Origin: Pseudacidobacterium ailaaui
GTDB lineage: Bacteria > Acidobacteriota > Terriglobia > Terriglobales > Acidobacteriaceae
Assembly: GCF_000688455.1 (NCBI RefSeq)
Contig: NZ_JIAL01000001.1
Location: 3,193,001-3,257,000 of the forward strand
Reading direction: 5' to 3'
DNA: 64,000 nucleotides
Part shown: piece by piece, positions 49,539 through 64,000 of the stretch
How the letters are laid out: each line of letters begins with the position of its first letter
Position numbering within the stretch: position 1 is the stretch's first letter
Translations under genes and position numbers: made by a program
Notes under the pieces: generated by a model
Told to the model about the DNA's origin: nothing
Database searches by the model: none
Seen by the model: the letters and a program-made list of their open reading frames with translations, nothing else

Positions 49539-50528
49539 TTAAAGTCGAGCATGGTGGGCGCGCAGCTCTGAGACAATTTCTGCGGCCGCCTTGCGTGCCA
49601 GCTCGCTCTTGTCCGGAGGAAAGCTGATGGCTCCCACCCGTGCATGCCCTCCACCCCCGTAGCGTTCACAGATGGTCGCTAGATTTACCATGTCCTCCGG
49701 TCTTGTCTTTGTCCAGGGATTCGAGCCAACAGCCACCTTGGTCCGGAAGGATGATTTGGAAAGGCCGATGGAGTATGTGGCTTCCGGATAAAGATAGTAG
49801 GGAATGAATTTGTTATATCCCTCCAGGGGATGATCGGTGATGTCGAAATAAATAGTGCCGTCTTTGTACTCAGCACGCTCCCGAATCAGTTTTAATGACT
49901 GCTCATGACGTTCCAGCAGGGGCGGCAAGAGCTCCGCAACAAAAGGCTGCTGCAGCACTTCTGCCAGAGGCATTTCAGTCATCAAAGGAATCAACCGGGG
50001 CGTAAAAGCAGGGTCCTGCGTGGATTCAATAATGAGCGTAAGCTTCATTGCCGGCTCAGCCATCTCCACCGCAGCCTGAGGGCTTTCATAAAGCGCGCCA
50101 TCTACGATATCGGCCCATTTCACCAGCTCCCGGACGGGAGTCGCGTCAAATCCGAAGCGCGTCTCTGCAATATGGGCCAGAAAGCTGGTGCATGAGGTGT
50201 AATCAGGATCATAAAAACGCCGATAAATGTACCGCCCATCGGCAATCCCCTTCCGATAGTCTTCGTGGTCCTCCGGGGTAAGAAAAGCGCTCAGATGATG
50301 ATCAAACCACCAGGTAATCCTGGGCGATGCCGAATACTTGAAGTCAACAATTGCATTTTCATCACCGATAAAATCGGCTTCACGGAACAAGGCCCCGGCG
50401 CGATGGACCAGACCGTGATACTCATAGTCAGCATCCGGTCGAATCCGCTCCCTGTGAAAGCGGGCAAATAAAGAAGCCGAGCAGACCCCGTCAAAGCATT
50501 TATCGTGATAAAAAACGCGTACCTTCAA
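49539..50528 (-). CDS. DHH/DHHA1 family phosphoesterase
   Basis: The 329-aa protein has motif I FYHDKCFDGVCSA, motif II VDFKYS, the DHH triad (residues 76-78) in WWFDHHLSAF, and the C-terminal DHHA1 substrate motif RYGGGGHARVGAISF. Members include RecJ-like exonucleases, NrnA nanoRNases and c-di-AMP phosphodiesterases. This short form without other domains is closest in layout to NrnA-like enzymes, but sequence alone does not settle it. Start ATG 50528 fits the family. It lies 28 bp upstream of the GH130 gene on the same strand. Confidence 0.88.
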   Translation of the reverse strand: MKVRVFYHDKCFDGVCSASLFARFHRERIRPDADYEYHGLVHRAGALFREADFIGDENAIVDFKYSASPRITWWFDHHLSAFLTPEDHEDYRKGIADGRYIYRRFYDPDYTSCTSFLAHIAETRFGFDATPVRELVKWADIVDGALYESPQAAVEMAEPAMKLTLIIESTQDPAFTPRLIPLMTEMPLAEVLQQPFVAELLPPLLERHEQSLKLIRERAEYKDGTIYFDITDHPLEGYNKFIPYYLYPEATYSIGLSKSSFRTKVAVGSNPWTKTRPEDMVNLATICERYGGGGHARVGAISFPPDKSELARKAAAEIVSELRAHHARL

Positions 50529-50779: not shown

Positions 50780-51190
50780 ATGAGCGCGTCCATGTATATC
50801 GTGGTCGAAGGGGAAGATCCAGGCTTTGACATCTTTGTGAACGGACGTGCGCTGGCCCGGAATGAGGATGCCCTGGAAAAGCTTGCCTTCCGGCTTGGGG
50901 TCAAGCCTTTGCTCGACTTTTTTTCTGCCGATGAAAACTCGATGGCCCTGCTTCTAGAAGAGGGCGCAGGCGACCCGGAATGGGTAAAAACGCTGCCTCC
51001 TCCGCAGTGGTTTTCTCCCGAAGATGGCCTTGAGACCATCTCTACTCTGCTCAATTTTCTGCGGAAAAATCCTCTCGCTCTGGGTTCAGAAACAGTCCCC
51101 GTCATGAATGAACTGGAAGAATACGAGCGGGTTTTGCGCAAGACTGCCGAACGGAGTCTGCGCTGGCAGCTGGCCGTCAGCTGGCGTTAA
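50780..51190 (+). CDS. Conserved-looking cytosolic protein, unknown
   Basis: The 136-aa acidic protein starts SASMYIVVEGEDPGFDIFVNGRALARNEDALEKLAFRLG and has no signal peptide or membrane helix. The repeated Asp/Glu, the PLLDFFSADENS segment and the tail ERVLRKTAERSLRWQLAVSWR suggest a folded globular protein. I do not recognise a named family. It has its own upstream promoter-like sequence and precedes tRNA-Leu by about 90 bp. Confidence 0.75.
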   Translation: MSASMYIVVEGEDPGFDIFVNGRALARNEDALEKLAFRLGVKPLLDFFSADENSMALLLEEGAGDPEWVKTLPPPQWFSPEDGLETISTLLNFLRKNPLALGSETVPVMNELEEYERVLRKTAERSLRWQLAVSWR

Positions 51191-51282: not shown

Positions 51283-51371
51283 GCCCGGATGGCGAAATCG
51301 GCAGACGCAGCGGACTTAAAATCCGCAGGAGATAACCCTCCGTGGGGGTTCAAGTCCCCCTCCGGGCACCA
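51283..51371 (+). tRNA. tRNA-Leu (UAA)
   Basis: GCCCGGATGGCGAAATCGG at the 5' end pairs with TCCGGGC at the 3' end (perfect 7-bp acceptor), followed by A and encoded CCA. A long class II variable arm and the T-loop GGTTCAAGTCC are visible. The anticodon in GGACTTAAAATCC is TAA. A short palindrome follows 28 bp downstream and then an orphan gene, the usual arrangement at tRNA-associated insertions. Confidence 0.97.
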
Positions 51372-51398
51372 TATAATAAGCAGACTTAATGTGATTTA

Positions 51399-51419
51399 GC
51401 CTCTCAAAATTTGAGAGGC
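51399..51419. repeat. Palindrome downstream of tRNA-Leu
   Basis: GCCTCTCAAA-A-TTTGAGAGGC is a perfect 10-bp inverted repeat about the central A, 28 bp after the tRNA. There is no T-run after it. It may terminate the tRNA transcript or be a protein-binding or element-end sequence. Two copies of GGTGGCTG follow shortly, just before the next gene. Confidence 0.6.
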
Positions 51420-51459
51420 CAGTATTGCTTGGTGGCTGTTGGTTTTTACTGGTGGCTGA

Positions 51460-52059
51460 ATGGCTGTTTTTGCGCCGCGGCGAGTTGCAACCGAGAGCAG
51501 GACAGACGTGTATGAGGAGGTGGAAGCCTCTTCATTGATTGCTAAACTCCAAGGTATGAATGATCCCATCGTTCCCGAGCCAAGCGCTGTTTATCCGGAA
51601 TCCGCATTTGAGGCGGCGATTACAGAAGTTGTTCGTGCTCTGCTTGATGGTATTGACCACGCCGTGGTTCCCAGGTTCGGGCTCGACATCGCCGTGTTTA
51701 GAAAGAGTGCAGAGGGAAGTCGGGTTTCTCTGATAGAAGTAAAGTCTTTCAATGACCAGCGTCAGGGAGGCATTGGCTTCGGAAATGGTCGCGGAGAAGG
51801 TCCTCAAGTCGACCTTTTGCTCTGCAACTCAGATCAGATGAATATCATCAACAAGCACATTCGCTGGGCATTCGTGAATGCACGCCTGCCGCATCGGTCA
51901 TCAAGGTATGCACTGATAAACTCCTCGCAAGCCTTGCGCATTGTTATGGGCGAAGTGAAGAAGGGTAAGCAGAACAATTTCAGCGTGATCCGTCTTGCAC
52001 CCCACTTGACTTCGTGGCAGGTATTTTGTGAAGAGCTGTCCAATTTTTTGTTGAACTGA
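51460..52059 (+). CDS. Orphan PD-(D/E)XK nuclease-like protein beside tRNA-Leu
   Basis: In this 199-aa protein, residues 74-95 read GLDIAVFRK - SLIEVKSF, giving Asp76, then Glu93-x-Lys95 after a hairpin-sized gap, preceded by an acidic helix (PESAFEAAITEVVRALLDG). This is the D - ExK arrangement of PD-(D/E)XK nucleases. A glycine-rich loop with Gln (GFGNGRGEGPQVDLLL) follows. Specific function is unknown and the fold call is inference. Codon use looks more AT-rich than neighbours, and it lies 88 bp after tRNA-Leu with no partner gene. The ATG at 51460 has only a weak ribosome site (GGTGGCTGA); ATG 51557 is an alternative. Confidence 0.7.
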   Translation: MAVFAPRRVATESRTDVYEEVEASSLIAKLQGMNDPIVPEPSAVYPESAFEAAITEVVRALLDGIDHAVVPRFGLDIAVFRKSAEGSRVSLIEVKSFNDQRQGGIGFGNGRGEGPQVDLLLCNSDQMNIINKHIRWAFVNARLPHRSSRYALINSSQALRIVMGEVKKGKQNNFSVIRLAPHLTSWQVFCEELSNFLLN

Positions 52060-52068
52060 ATTCGCCGT

Positions 52069-52128
52069 CACGGCATTCCCCGAATGCCCGGAGTTATAGC
52101 TGGAAGCCGGGCCTGAGTCAATGCCGTG
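52069..52128. repeat. Nested inverted repeat between convergent genes
   Basis: Outer arms CACGGCATT (52069-52077) and AATGCCGTG (52120-52128) enclose inner arms GCCCGG (52086-52091) and CCGGGC (52107-52112). The result is a two-tier hairpin 10 bp after the nuclease-like gene and 25 bp before the stop of the propeller regulator. It may terminate both transcripts or mark the edge of inserted DNA. Confidence 0.55.
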
Positions 52129-52152
52129 CTAAAGAGTGCTGCCCGCGCTGGT

Positions 52153-54408
52153 CTACAAACCCTGCTTCAGATTCAGCGCATAAATATTGACCGAGGAGCT
52201 CTGGGTATTGACGATGGGCTGGTCTCCAGGGGCAAGGGCAATCAAACGGTAATCTGAAGCGTAGGCGGGCTGAAGGTCTGCCAGGGTTGCAATCTTGTGT
52301 GCGGTCCCGGTGGCTATGTCCAGCCGGTAGAGCGGCTCTCCCGGCTCCAGAAAGTTCTGATAATAGAGTGACCTGCTGTCGCTTGCCCATACCGGATCAG
52401 AGGCGCCGTTGTCTACCATCTCGACCCAATGCTGGGTGTGAAAATCATAGAGCATCATGGTCTTCTGGTCTGGACGCAAAGCAGCCAGATAACGTCCATC
52501 CGGAGAAAGCCGGGGACTGAACAATCCATCCGAACCGGGGACCTTTTCGACCACATGCGTATGAAGATTTACCGAGAAGATCGCCTTTGGCTGCGATTCC
52601 CCTCCCATGATGTCTGGCACGCGCCCGAACACGATTGTGCTTCCGTCCGGAGACCAGTTCGGATCCGCCTGGCCACGGTCCTCTTTGAGAACAAGCTGAA
52701 GATTTCCGCCATTGGCGTCTACCAGATAAATGGCCCAAATCCCCCCGGCCCTACGCGCCATCAGGGCCAGCGAGTGATTGTCCGGCGACCACCGCATACT
52801 AAAGATAGAAATTGCAGGTGTTGATGGAATGGTGAGTTGCAGGCGCTCTGTTCCGTCAGCCCGGCTGCGCCAAAGAGTACTGTCTGCGGCATTGAGCCAG
52901 GCAACCCACTGACCATCCCGCGAATATTCCACTAAGGCCGTGGATGCCAGATTGTTTGCCAGAGGAAGAAAGCGGTGCGCCGAAGCTGAGTACATCAGCA
53001 TCTCGCGGCGCGAATCCACACCGGTAAAGAAAATATGTTTGGCCCCGCTTACTGGAGATTGATACGCCAGCGGGCCATTGGTGAGCCGGACTGGACTGTG
53101 ATCCAGAATGCCGCGACGCAATTCCCAGATGTCGGCTGAGCCGTCATGAGTGGAGGCAAACACATAGGCATGCCCGTCCGGGGTCCAGTTCCCGCAGCAC
53201 TCTGCTGAAGGCTGACTCCAACCCTCCAGCAGACGGCGCAATTTGCCTCCGGAAGCGGCATATTCCCACAGTGAGGGTGCACCGGTCTCAGGATCAAGCA
53301 CGGTGAAACGCAGCAGCTTCCCATCTGGAGACCACCGCAGCCAGAAGGCCCGGCCGGGAAGCGCCAGAAAGGCGCGCTGCTCCTGGCCGTCTTCACGGGC
53401 AAGAAAGAGCGAGTTCCCTGCTGCGTACAGAATATGCTGTCCGTCCGGCATCCACGTCGCATCATGCGCCAGCACATTGCCGATCCGTTGTGCTTGTCCG
53501 CCCAGGGCCGGCACAATCCAGAGGGGTTGTTCGGGCTCTCGCGCCAGGTGGCTCCTTACGATCAGTCGCGATCCATCCTGGGAAATGGAGCAGATGAGCG
53601 GCGCAGCAATCTCGGAGGGCAGACGAAGGTCTTCAACCTCGCCATTTGCCGTAAGCGCTTCGGCCAGAACAGGACGGCCCTCTTCCAGCTGGGAAAAATA
53701 GATCCGGCCTCCCTCAACCGCCATGGCAGAAAAGTTCTCAATGTCTAACTGGGTCGCCAGAACTTTGCCATGGTGCGTCACAGAGGAAATCCGCAACGGC
53801 ACTTTCGCAGGCCTGAAAAACCAAGTCCCGATCACGACAATGCAGATAACGGCCGCAGAACAGCTCCATTGCAGAAAACCACGTCGATCTTTTCGAGAGG
53901 GATTTTGATGCTGCTGCGCGCGCGCCCCGTCAACGTTCGACACGATGCCCGATCCAGGGCCAGAAGCAGGCAGGAAAGGACCCGCAGTGAGATCCGATGA
54001 TGCTCCCGGCGGGAGCTCTTTTAGGGCATAGGGAGCATGGATTTCGCGGACCGGAGCAATGAAGCGATATCCCCGCCGTGCAAGCGTCTCAATAAATCGC
54101 GGATTCTCGGCGGAATCACCCAGCGCATCACGCAGCTTATTGACCGCGATTCCCAGACTGTGATCAAAGTCGACAGTGGTGTTGTCTCCCCACAGCCGCT
54201 TCTGTATCTGCTCTTTACTTACCACTTCGCCGTGGTGTTCCAGAAGCACTGCCAGAACCCGGAAGGGCTGCCCCTGGATACGCACGCGTTTCCCATTTTT
54301 GCGGAGTTCACCTGCCTTTATGTCCGCTTCAAAAAGACCAAAAGCGTAACGCTCTGGCAAAGATGACAACCTGCTGAGTGGTTCTTCCGCTTCCATGGAA
54401 AAATCCAA
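52153..54408 (-). CDS. Winged-helix transcriptional regulator with TM helix and TolB-like propeller
   Basis: In this 751-aa protein, residues 20-115 are an OmpR/PhoB-type winged helix as in CadC/ToxR (LRKNGKRVRIQGQPFRVLAVLLEHHGEVVSKEQIQKRLWG - VDFDHSLGIAVNKLRDALGD - ETLARRGYRFIAPV). One transmembrane helix follows (SAAVICIVVIGTWFF, about 180-197), then a periplasmic PD40/WD40-like propeller with repeats such as LRWSPDGKLLRFTVLD and DPNWSPDGSTIVFGRV. This fits a one-component membrane sensor that binds DNA directly. AGGAGATGA lies before the TTG at 54408; ATG 54396 is an alternative. It is divergent from the TonB receptor, a likely target. Confidence 0.92.
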   Translation of the reverse strand: MDFSMEAEEPLSRLSSLPERYAFGLFEADIKAGELRKNGKRVRIQGQPFRVLAVLLEHHGEVVSKEQIQKRLWGDNTTVDFDHSLGIAVNKLRDALGDSAENPRFIETLARRGYRFIAPVREIHAPYALKELPPGASSDLTAGPFLPASGPGSGIVSNVDGARAQQHQNPSRKDRRGFLQWSCSAAVICIVVIGTWFFRPAKVPLRISSVTHHGKVLATQLDIENFSAMAVEGGRIYFSQLEEGRPVLAEALTANGEVEDLRLPSEIAAPLICSISQDGSRLIVRSHLAREPEQPLWIVPALGGQAQRIGNVLAHDATWMPDGQHILYAAGNSLFLAREDGQEQRAFLALPGRAFWLRWSPDGKLLRFTVLDPETGAPSLWEYAASGGKLRRLLEGWSQPSAECCGNWTPDGHAYVFASTHDGSADIWELRRGILDHSPVRLTNGPLAYQSPVSGAKHIFFTGVDSRREMLMYSASAHRFLPLANNLASTALVEYSRDGQWVAWLNAADSTLWRSRADGTERLQLTIPSTPAISIFSMRWSPDNHSLALMARRAGGIWAIYLVDANGGNLQLVLKEDRGQADPNWSPDGSTIVFGRVPDIMGGESQPKAIFSVNLHTHVVEKVPGSDGLFSPRLSPDGRYLAALRPDQKTMMLYDFHTQHWVEMVDNGASDPVWASDSRSLYYQNFLEPGEPLYRLDIATGTAHKIATLADLQPAYASDYRLIALAPGDQPIVNTQSSSVNIYALNLKQGL

Positions 54409-60289: not shown

Positions 60290-61414
60290 TCAAGCGTTTG
60301 CTTGTATTAAACGGTGGTACAGGTCGAGATAACGGTCCATGCTCGGGTCAAATGCAAAGCGGCGAAGGTTCTCAAATCCCCTGCTTCTCAGGTCCCTGAA
60401 ATCGTCGGCATTTTTATCAATCACCTCTGCGGCCTGCTCGGGCAGTTCAGGGTCAATATAGATGGCCGCTGTACCAGCAATCTCCGTCATGGGAGGACGA
60501 TTGCTGGTGATGACGGGACATCCGCAAGCTTGGGCCTCCAGAAGCGGCCAGCCAAAGCCTTCCTCCAGCGAGGGGAACAGCAGCGCGACAGCTCCGGAGT
60601 ACAGGGCCTGCAGCTCTTCATTCGATATGTCAACTCGCTCCACTAGGGCGTCGAGCAGATCCATTCTCTGCGCGAAATCGCGCATTTCTCTAGTCCATGG
60701 CTTCCCTGCCAAAACGAGTCTCGCATTCTGAAACCGCGGAAATTTTCGCAATTCAGAAAAAATGCGCATCACCCCCAGTCGGTTCTTGTACCAGTGATTA
60801 TTACCCACATGAAAGAAATACTCGTCGTGCACAGTGAGACCACACTTGGCTTTTTCGGCCTCAATCGCTTCCCTGCTCGCCGGAGCATATTTCCAGTGAA
60901 GCGGGTGATAGATGACTTCTAAATTCTGTGGCGCATGCGCACACAGCTCCTTTACATCCTGTAGGGTTTTCTGCGAAACACACACAATGTTTTTTGCCTG
61001 CATGAGGCTGCCTGCGATCCAATTTTGCAAAAGGCGGCCCATTTTTCCTACACGAACTCCAGGATATTTGCCGCGTGCAGAAAAAACCGCAATCAGGTCA
61101 TGACACGTAATCAGGCAAGGTTTTTTCCCAGCACACTTGAGATACATTGCATTGGAGTGGTCACAAATGTGGATCACGTCCACAGCAGCGGCCTTTTTTC
61201 GCAAATAGGGAAAAGCAAAGATATATTTGTCCAGATATCCGGCCCACTTCTTCCAGGGCCCGTGCAGCCAGGAAGGCCGGCCCAAAACCGGCGGTGGAAA
61301 GACCGTCTCAACCATGACGCCCCGACTGCGAAGTGCATGCTCCAGCATATCTGCATAGCGCAACATGCTCTCCTGGGCGTCTGGCGGATAATTGGAAATG
61401 AGCAGGACTTTCAT
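60290..61414 (-). CDS. Glycosyltransferase family 4 (GT-B)
   Basis: The 374-aa cytosolic GT-B enzyme starts KVLLISNYPPDAQESMLRYADML. Its C-terminal half has YFFHVGNNHWYKNRLGVMRIF, LVLAGKPWT and the GT4 nucleotide-sugar signature PSLEEGFGWPLLEAQACGCPVITSN followed by PPMTEIAGTAAIYIDP. It adds a sugar from a nucleotide donor to surface polysaccharide or lipid acceptors; specificity is not readable. The next gene upstream on this strand, a GME-like epimerase, is separated by a terminator, so they are separate units in one functional cluster. Confidence 0.9.
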   Translation of the reverse strand: MKVLLISNYPPDAQESMLRYADMLEHALRSRGVMVETVFPPPVLGRPSWLHGPWKKWAGYLDKYIFAFPYLRKKAAAVDVIHICDHSNAMYLKCAGKKPCLITCHDLIAVFSARGKYPGVRVGKMGRLLQNWIAGSLMQAKNIVCVSQKTLQDVKELCAHAPQNLEVIYHPLHWKYAPASREAIEAEKAKCGLTVHDEYFFHVGNNHWYKNRLGVMRIFSELRKFPRFQNARLVLAGKPWTREMRDFAQRMDLLDALVERVDISNEELQALYSGAVALLFPSLEEGFGWPLLEAQACGCPVITSNRPPMTEIAGTAAIYIDPELPEQAAEVIDKNADDFRDLRSRGFENLRRFAFDPSMDRYLDLYHRLIQANA

Positions 61415-61523
61415 GAAAGAAGCAAAGGCTTAACCTCGGGAGGTTCTGTCGTCACATATCCCTTAGCTGCGTCTTGGGCCCTGTGACTGGTCTCTGATGC
61501 AAGGATGCAAGCGTCAGGAGAGA

Positions 61524-61556
61524 AAGAAAAAGGAACGGCCTTTGTGGGGCCATTCC
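61524..61556 (-). terminator. Intrinsic terminator (minus strand) after the epimerase gene
   Basis: On the minus strand GGAATGGCC, loop CCACAAA, GGCCGTTCC form a 9-bp stem with one G-U, followed by TTTTTC. The wobble exists only in minus-strand RNA, which gives direction. It ends the transcript of the epimerase gene. Confidence 0.8.
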
Positions 61557-61569
61557 CTTTCTCAAACAA

Positions 61570-62562
61570 TTAACGGCCGACCGTGGCCAGCATCTGGCTT
61601 TCAATCCATTCGTAGGTCTTTTGCATTCCATCACGCAAGCGAATGGAAGGCTCCCACCCCAGATACTTCAGAATTTTCGTATTATCACTGTTGCGTCCGT
61701 TAACGCCCTTTGGGGCATCCAGCTTGTATTTACGCTGGAGTTTTACTCCGGCAATCTCTTCGACAATATCTACAAGCTGATTGATCGTGACTAATTCACT
61801 GCTGCCCAGATTAATGGGCTCAAGAATATCATCACTTTCAAGGATGGCCTGGGTCCCTTTGGTGCAGTCATCCACGTACATAAAACTGCGCGTCTGGGTC
61901 CCGTCTCCCCAAATTTCTATCTCGTGTTTCCCTGACATCTTTGCCTGAATGACTTTTCTGCAAATCGCTGCCGGGGCCTTTTCGCGCCCGCCGTCATACG
62001 TTCCGAAGGGACCATAGACATTGTGATAGCGTGCAACGCGGGTCTGAAGACCGAAGTCTTCTCGAAAGTGACGGCACATGCGCTCACTGAAAAGTTTTTC
62101 CCAGCCATAGCCGTCTTCAGGCAGCGCAGGATAGGCATCCTCTTCCTTCAGCGGCGCCACATCCGGGGTCTTCTGTTTTTCACCGTTATAAACACATGCT
62201 GAGGAAGAATAAAAGAAGCGCTCGACGCCGGAATCCCTTGCCGCCATCAGCATATGCGTATTGGTCAGAACACTCAGCATGCACAACGCTTTATTGTTCT
62301 CAATAAAGCCCATTCCACCCATGTCTGCTGCCAGTTGGAAAACTACCTGGGTTCCCTTGGCCGCTTGATAACAGTTGTCCTTTTCGCGAAGGTCCAGGAC
62401 CAGGTTTTCGACGTCCTTTGACTTCTGGTACCACTCGTCGAGCGGCTTTATATCTACAGCGCGTACTACATTGACACCATTCTTCAAAAGAGCATTCACC
62501 AGATGTCCGCCGATAAATCCACCCGCCCCACAAACCACTACCTTTTCATTCGTCAGTTTCAT
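61570..62562 (-). CDS. GDP-mannose 3,5-epimerase-like nucleotide-sugar SDR
   Basis: The 330-aa extended SDR has VVCGAGGFIGGHLVNALL at the N-terminus. It carries hallmarks of plant GDP-mannose 3,5-epimerase: LAADMGGMGFIENNKA, FFYSSSACVYN, YGWEKLFSERMCRHF and ARYHNVYGPFGTYDGGREKAPAAICRKV. The catalytic YxxxK is YGWEK. It would turn GDP-mannose into GDP-L-galactose or GDP-L-gulose for glycan synthesis. Exact substrate is inferred from motif recall. TGGAGCAAGGA precedes the ATG. It lies between UDP-glucose dehydrogenase and GT4 genes. Confidence 0.85.
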   Translation of the reverse strand: MKLTNEKVVVCGAGGFIGGHLVNALLKNGVNVVRAVDIKPLDEWYQKSKDVENLVLDLREKDNCYQAAKGTQVVFQLAADMGGMGFIENNKALCMLSVLTNTHMLMAARDSGVERFFYSSSACVYNGEKQKTPDVAPLKEEDAYPALPEDGYGWEKLFSERMCRHFREDFGLQTRVARYHNVYGPFGTYDGGREKAPAAICRKVIQAKMSGKHEIEIWGDGTQTRSFMYVDDCTKGTQAILESDDILEPINLGSSELVTINQLVDIVEEIAGVKLQRKYKLDAPKGVNGRNSDNTKILKYLGWEPSIRLRDGMQKTYEWIESQMLATVGR

Positions 62563-62634
62563 TCCTTGCTCCAGTTTGATTGAGTCTAACTAACCACCAG
62601 GCCCTGCGTCTCAAAAAGCATACTTTGTAAACAG

Positions 62635-64000
62635 TTATGGCAGATTATAGAAAAACGTTGCCTCTTTCTCCTGCGGCGCCGCAGCTCTTCCCACTCCAAG
62701 ATAAGTAAATCCATAGCGACGCATTACAGATGGATCCAGCAAGTTTCTTCCATCAATGACGACCGGATAACGCATGATCCGAGATAGCCGGTCAAAGTCC
62801 AGATCTATAAATTCCTGCCAGTCCGTTAAGACCAGTAACGCGTCAGCATCTCTTGCGGCCTCGTAGGCATCCTCGGCGTACATCATGTGCGTGGATGATG
62901 GAAGCACGTAGCTCGCTCTCTCCATCGCTGCCGGATCGTAAGCCGAAATCATGCAGCCTTCCTCCAGGAACATCCGCACCAGATCAATCGCTGGAGATTC
63001 TCGGATATCATCCGTTCCCCCCTTGAAGGCAAGGCCAAGCACTCCCAGCTTTTTCCCTCGGAAGGTCCAAAGCGCTGAACGCACCTTCCGGAAGAAGCGC
63101 TTTTTCTGTTCGCGATTCACTTTTTCAACTTCATGCAGCAGGCCAAACTCAACTCCAAGATGCTCCGCTACATATCGAAAGGCCGCCACATCTTTGGGAA
63201 AACAGGAACCCCCGTAACCAATTCCTGCTTTAAGAAAGCTGTTTCCAATCCTTCGGTCGGACCCGATGCCCTGACTCACTTGTTCGATGTCCGCTCCCAC
63301 AGCCTCACAAATATTGGAAACAACATTGATGAAGGAAATTTTCATCGCTAAAAAGGCATTGGATGCATGTTTAATAATTTCTGCTGCCTTTGTCGAAGTT
63401 TCAAATAAAGGTGGGACATGATCTGGAGTTCTTGCCCCGGGGATTGCGCTGGTTTTCCTATAGTAACTACCAGTGGTAAGCGGTGCATACACCCTACGCA
63501 AAAGGACTGCAGCTCGCTCGCTGTCTACACCAATGACGATGCGATCAGGATGGAGAAAATCGGCAACTGCTGTTCCCTCACGCAAAAACTCAGGGTTCGA
63601 AGCGACATCAAAAAGCTCACGTGATACTCCATTGCGCACCATGATTCGGCGAATCCACTCACTGGTATAGACCGGAACAGTACTCTTTTCCACGATGAGC
63701 CGATAGCCGGTAATCGCACGCGCAATCTCACTGGCAACCGCATCCACATAAGACAGATCGGCGGTCCCTGCGTGGTCTTGCGGAGTGCCAACCGCAATAA
63801 AAAGTATCTGCGCCCGTTCAGTCGCTTCTTTCAGGGCCGTAGTAAACTCAATCAATCCATTCTGATGCCGCTCCAGTAATTGGGGCAAATACTCCTCGTG
63901 AATCGGCGCTTTCCCTTGTCGCAAAAGGGCGACTTTGCTTTCGTCGCTATCAACACAGATGACATAATGACCCAGTTCCGCAAAGCAGACCGCAGCGACA
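62635..64000 (-). CDS. UDP-glucose 6-dehydrogenase (partial, 5' end outside window)
   Basis: The frame is open through the right edge of the window: the last bases encode VAAVCFAELGHYVICVDSDESKVALLRQGKAPI, the usual start of the NAD-binding domain, so only about the first 10-12 residues are missing. A TTG inside (LRQGKA) is not the start. Further motifs are IFIAVGTPQDHAGTADLSYV, ASNPEFLREGTAVADFLHPDRIVIG, the catalytic cysteine in GIGYGGSCFPKDVAAFR and GLAFKGGTDDIRESPA. It oxidises UDP-glucose to UDP-glucuronate, the substrate of the decarboxylase gene at 7.8 kb. Probably co-transcribed with the epimerase downstream (72 bp). Confidence 0.92.
   Translation of the reverse strand, partial: VAAVCFAELGHYVICVDSDESKVALLRQGKAPIHEEYLPQLLERHQNGLIEFTTALKEATERAQILFIAVGTPQDHAGTADLSYVDAVASEIARAITGYRLIVEKSTVPVYTSEWIRRIMVRNGVSRELFDVASNPEFLREGTAVADFLHPDRIVIGVDSERAAVLLRRVYAPLTTGSYYRKTSAIPGARTPDHVPPLFETSTKAAEIIKHASNAFLAMKISFINVVSNICEAVGADIEQVSQGIGSDRRIGNSFLKAGIGYGGSCFPKDVAAFRYVAEHLGVEFGLLHEVEKVNREQKKRFFRKVRSALWTFRGKKLGVLGLAFKGGTDDIRESPAIDLVRMFLEEGCMISAYDPAAMERASYVLPSSTHMMYAEDAYEAARDADALLVLTDWQEFIDLDFDRLSRIMRYPVVIDGRNLLDPSVMRRYGFTYLGVGRAAAPQEKEATFFYNLP

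Follow-up and report, generated by a model that had tools for sequence, protein, structure and literature searches.

A candidate PD-(D/E)XK nuclease of a rare, patchily distributed family at a synteny break beside tRNA-Leu in Pseudacidobacterium ailaaui

A 64-kb stretch of the Pseudacidobacterium ailaaui genome (the window) carries an orphan open reading frame (ORF) just past the gene for tRNA-Leu(UAA), which raises the question of what this gene encodes and how it came to lie there. A first-pass annotation, made from the letters of the window, had described a 199-aa ORF 88 bp past the tRNA; both the ORF and the spacing were confirmed. We think it somewhat probable that the product of the gene is a small single-domain PD-(D/E)XK endonuclease, rare, laterally spread and without a library model, that most likely acts as a solitary restriction-type enzyme against invaders.

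Family members and invariant residues

Searches of Pfam, PADLOC, PHROGs and NCBIfam gave no match to the window protein, none of the three full family members matched Pfam, and the sequences of the PDB gave no convincing match to the protein or the family. No description of the family was recognised in the literature with general search terms, which is not proof of unpublished status. In an initial set, 5 of 150 genomes matched the window protein, its own genome included. Two full homologues were found: L002 (171 aa, 45% identity), from a different genus of the same family, and L006 (172 aa, about 39% identity), from the metagenome-assembled genome (MAG) of Candidatus Scotarchaeum otlingeri, placed by NCBI in Candidatus Geothermarchaeota. 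The starts of both correspond roughly to residues 33-38 in the window protein, and each has an in-frame stop shortly upstream; the ATG at 51556, giving 167 aa, is therefore the likelier start. A further match, in a genome of another genus (G059), covered residues 98-171 alone in a 76-aa ORF; we take it as a decayed copy, since nothing matching residues 1-97 was reported.

Five residues, E47, D76, E93, K95 and Q116, were invariant in all three full proteins, from bacteria and an archaeon. They fit, in order (E, D, E-x-K, Q), motifs I-IV of the PD-(D/E)XK superfamily as defined in PMC1913061. The motif II aspartate and the motif III (D/E)-x-K signature, which mark membership of the superfamily, were thus conserved in 3/3. 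The only invariant acidic residues in the three-member alignment were E40, E47, D76 and E93, three of which fit motifs I-III, and the only invariant lysines were K95 and K170. Q116 was kept in 4/4 when the decayed fragment was included. With three members, this invariance is suggestive and not statistical proof. Between motifs III and IV lies a conserved stretch, QRQGGxGFGNxRGEG. Residues 100-117 read QRQGGIGFGNGRGEGPQV, with 10 of the 18 positions invariant across the full proteins, and the decayed fragment reads GGVGFGNGRGEGAQV in the same region. The D76 and E93-x-K95 arrangement and the glycine-rich GFGNGRGEGPQ loop, both pointed out by the first-pass annotation, are present as it stated. 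What sets this family apart from the catalogued PD-(D/E)XK families, to which no sequence match was found, is the conserved, glycine-rich segment, about 20 residues long, that separates motif III from motif IV. These features suggest, with moderate confidence, that it is probably an unnamed family of PD-(D/E)XK nucleases.

The family is rare among the genomes searched, with two intact copies and one broken copy besides the window gene. In the taxonomic family, 3/398 genomes matched at E <= 0.001, counting the window genome and the decayed copy. In the phylum, 1/396 matched, the window genome itself. Around the archaeon, 1/300 and 1/400 genomes matched, both times the Candidatus Scotarchaeum otlingeri MAG. 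These genome samples overlap, and each was drawn from a larger group. Two weaker matches, both outside the 3/398, were dropped: G057 (E 0.0016, two stops), where the DNA on reading runs into an apparent other gene, and G103 (E 0.009), which was weak and whose DNA was unread. Searches by tblastn with the window protein, L002 and L006 gave no match to plasmids or phages. Five viral contig scans returned no relative of the family, and in one of them the peptide pattern occurred in 15 contigs with a best alignment of E 2.0. The scan of genome contigs requires exact short peptide matches and detects close relatives only. Phage or plasmid carriage was rejected on these results.

Predicted fold

Two AlphaFold models were made, one from the window protein with L006 and one from L006 first with window residues 40-199. 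In the first, better model, residues 47-61 form a helix and residues 67-70, 76-83 and 86-97 form strands. D76 and E93/K95, and with them motifs II and III, would lie on consecutive strands, as in the PD-(D/E)XK superfamily. As for the placing of motifs I and IV in helices, E47 opens the modelled helix, and Q116 falls in a strand, the model itself being poor.

VIA-align ranked McrBC chains first and second for the first model (Z 7.2 and 6.7), followed by Tk-TIP26 (6.2) and two further McrBC rows (5.5 and 5.3); we take the McrBC chains to be McrC. Foldseek placed MspJI chains at ranks 1-4 (E 0.007-0.03, prob 0.75-0.91) and AspBHI at rank 6. McrC, MspJI, AspBHI and TIP26 all carry PD-(D/E)XK-type domains. 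The best, weak fold matches of the better model thus suggest a likeness to modification-dependent restriction nucleases of the McrC and MspJI types. Unlike these, the window protein is one small domain, with no adjacent McrB-type gene seen and no McrC sequence signal.

The locus, its repeats and its neighbours

The sole same-genus genome found, G017, among 41 relatives listed, lacks the gene. Its upstream genes and tRNA-Leu are syntenic with the window, but the tRNA is followed there by a different gene, read as malQ, and the right flank is found on a separate contig, behind yet another gene. In the window genome, malQ and its neighbour are about 340 kb away. The comparison downstream of the tRNA that the first-pass annotation had proposed found, in this one genome, the gene absent and another gene there. 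The two gene orders diverge within 51372-52152, the interval that holds the nuclease-like gene, which therefore sits at a synteny break (Table 1).

Composition was compared over 34 window ORFs picked as credible genes, the nuclease-like ORF included. Its GC content was 0.505 (mean 0.547, sd 0.022) and its GC at third codon positions (GC3) 0.535 (mean 0.595, sd 0.037), the latter second lowest of the 34. Its codon-use z, -3.2, was also second lowest. Codon use is mildly foreign, and the earlier remark that the gene is more AT-rich than its neighbours was correct, with a mild difference. Absence from the one same-genus genome, the 3/398 distribution, codon use and the synteny break together support lateral acquisition, and the gene was probably acquired in this way.

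Table 1. Positions of the features described. Coordinates are those of the window unless another locus or residue numbers are given.
Feature	Position	Strand	Description
Nuclease-like orphan ORF	51460..52059	+	199 aa, ATG start, intact
Likelier-start form, conserved part (residues 33-199)	51556..52059	+	167 aa; invariant columns of three-member alignment
Motifs	I E47; II D76; III E93-x-K95; IV Q116
Other conserved parts	glycine-rich stretch 100-115; IRW 134-136; GKQNNF 169-174
tRNA-Leu (UAA)	51283..51371	+	intact, without intron; left flank, left edge of synteny break
21-bp palindrome	51399..51419	.	10-bp arms, 1-nt centre; single copy in genome
Two-tier hairpin	52069..52128	.	9-bp outer and 6-bp inner stem; between convergent gene ends; single copy in genome
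Right flank, Trans_reg_C and PD40 protein	52153..54408	-	right edge of synteny break; outside the described feature
AIPR/AbiU gene	L006 4126-5766	same as archaeal homologue	directly upstream of archaeal homologue
Decayed family piece	L040 2352-2582		glycine-rich stretch kept; residues 1-97 without reported match

The first-pass annotation had the gene bracketed by inverted repeats and offered it as a leftover of a tRNA island. The palindrome before the gene and the two-tier inverted repeat after it were both found; they form no matched bracket and are not element ends. They have no 6-mer in common in either orientation, and the intergenic flanks have no direct 6-mer in common and a single 6-nt inverted match. 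Terminal inverted repeats were rejected, as the two structures are unrelated and each is single copy. The palindrome occurs once in the 3.69-Mb genome, allowing <= 3 mismatches. It is one of five distinct perfect repeats in the window (arms of at least 10 bp, loops of 0-5 nt), a class of which five Markov-shuffled windows had 0 or 1 each. Its RNA fold was unremarkable (z -1.4, 18/200 shuffles equally good), and that of the hairpin was barely above chance (z -1.3 with 20/200 shuffles as good on the + strand, z -2.0 with 10/200 on the - strand). Neither structure was picked up by a terminator scan limited to loops of 3-8 nt. From its position between convergent genes the hairpin is a possible two-way terminator, and the palindrome could possibly be an end stem of the tRNA transcript or an operator of the nuclease-like gene. 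We attribute two further weak repeats to chance: 51272-51289/52075-52092, with 83% over 18 nt and running into the tRNA 5' end, and 51257-51268/52101-52112.

The longest exact copies of any part of the last 45 nt of the tRNA in the 3.3 kb downstream measured 8 nt in direct and 9 nt in inverted orientation, against 7-10 nt in shuffles, so that no att duplication was seen. No integrase was found by Pfam among eight flanking proteins, all from beyond the first 44 kb of the window. At the homologue loci, neither L006 nor L040 has a tRNA, and in L039 a tRNA-Val lies about 4.7 kb from the copy. A tRNA-targeted island was rejected on these grounds.

An AIPR gene (PF10592 E 5e-41; PADLOC AbiU E 5e-34) lies upstream of the archaeal copy, at a distance of 222 bp. 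AIPR/AbiU proteins are abortive-infection proteins, and the window family is a different protein without detectable sequence similarity to them. AbiU1/AIPR is said in PMC3506569 to be frequently associated with restriction-modification. No recognisable AIPR/AbiU neighbour was seen at the window or L039 loci. No methyltransferase was found by Pfam in the window neighbours 49539-50528, 50780-51190 and 52153-54408, the rest of the genome not having been searched for one, and none was recognised on reading ORFs of L006 and L039, where few were scanned. At the loci examined the gene thus lacks the adjacent cognate methyltransferase that defines Type II restriction-modification. At the scanned flanks these results support the earlier description of the gene as solitary, with no integrase, methylase or partner beside it.

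Two other parts of the window drew attention. At 60290-63924, glycosyltransferase, epimerase and UDP-glucose/GDP-mannose dehydrogenase genes adjoin tRNA-Ser(CGA), possibly an acquired polysaccharide cluster; among the 34 ORFs the dehydrogenase gene scored lowest in codon-use z (-5.0), with a GC3 of 0.493. A 329-aa protein at 49539-50528 has a weak DHHA1 match under the Pfam cut-off and is conserved in G017.

Weighing the readings

From the residues, the model and the distribution we infer a PD-(D/E)XK fold, catalysis, DNA as the substrate and a role in defence. The patchy distribution, the decayed copy, the spread between bacterium and archaeon and the one defence-gene neighbour would fit a putative, laterally moving defence nuclease.

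Several observations weigh against a restriction-type PD-(D/E)XK nuclease. Both models were of low confidence (mean pLDDT 49 for the first and 41 for the second), and in the VIA-align and Foldseek rows shown for the second model no nuclease of this fold was recognisable. In VIA-align the next rows for the first model were a YqgP domain (5.3) and carboxylases (<= 5.1), where the tool flags Z < 8 as common and rows within 1 are tied. Foldseek placed PopP2 at rank 5, then many unrelated chains, and the MspJI and AspBHI superpositions had a query TM of 0.22-0.27 and an rmsd of 6-18 A, none at E <= 0.001. The three-member profile gave no hhalign signal against E. coli McrC, HsdR or the archaeal AIPR, which as single sequences offered low power; the best probability for any of the five E. 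coli restriction-locus proteins and the four other proteins compared was 4.5% (HsdM). The lack of a family match in the four libraries counts in the same direction. The copies do not share partners: in the other bacterium the gene comes after one for a polyprenyl synthetase (PF00348), and no recognisable defence gene was seen in the 9.8-kb contig that carries it. PADLOC matched two of ten window proteins, with GlgB and desaturase models, which we read as metabolic. The nuclease assignment of the first-pass annotation remains the preferred interpretation, with moderate confidence. Its motif residues proved invariant; of the predicted structures, the first weakly matched mainly PD-(D/E)XK enzymes and the second none.

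The low-confidence models, the second unlike nucleases, would also suit an inactive or non-nuclease protein that merely resembles the motif, whether DNA-binding, regulatory or a partner in an unseen system, as would the missing family match and the many non-nucleases among the weak fold matches. We consider this unlikely, as all catalytic-type residues are invariant across the gap between bacterium and archaeon, and a dead enzyme would have no need of that. A housekeeping repair or recombination nuclease of the Holliday-junction-resolvase kind would account for the small single domain, and such a resolvase appeared at Foldseek rank 27 (E 0.42). However, 395/398 family genomes were without a match, so the gene is hardly housekeeping, and we hold this explanation to be improbable. 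PD-(D/E)XK homing endonucleases are known from tRNA introns, and the nearby tRNA-Leu(UAA), the patchy distribution and the synteny break could speak for a selfish, free-standing homing-type enzyme directed at the tRNA-Leu region, which would propagate by cleaving alleles without the gene. That seems very improbable: the tRNA is intact and intron-free, and the homologues do not lie beside tRNA genes.

In the favoured reading, a solitary restriction-type endonuclease, D76 and E93, with E47, would hold Mg2+ and K95 would position the attacking water. Q116 and the QRQGGxGFGNxRGEG stretch would contact DNA, the stretch being a putative target-reading or DNA-clamping element, and DNA would be cut at a site or structure that it sets. 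The enzyme would most likely serve as stand-alone defence against invaders, encoded at what appears to be a rearrangement junction just past tRNA-Leu(UAA) and not in a tRNA-targeting island. More tentatively, and on balance doubtfully, the family may be a new minimal stand-alone restriction type (~170 aa), free of a methylase, in which the stretch reads a target such as a modified base or an invader DNA structure, and which has crossed between the bacterial and archaeal domains and in some cases accompanies an AIPR protein.

If active, the protein would represent a very small nuclease family, absent from the four profile libraries searched and common to bacteria and an archaeon, and its conserved glycine-rich stretch would offer a handle on specificity. 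If the reading is true, it would also provide an example of a defence-type gene placed precisely at the junction of a chromosomal rearrangement, without any mobile-element machinery seen next to it.
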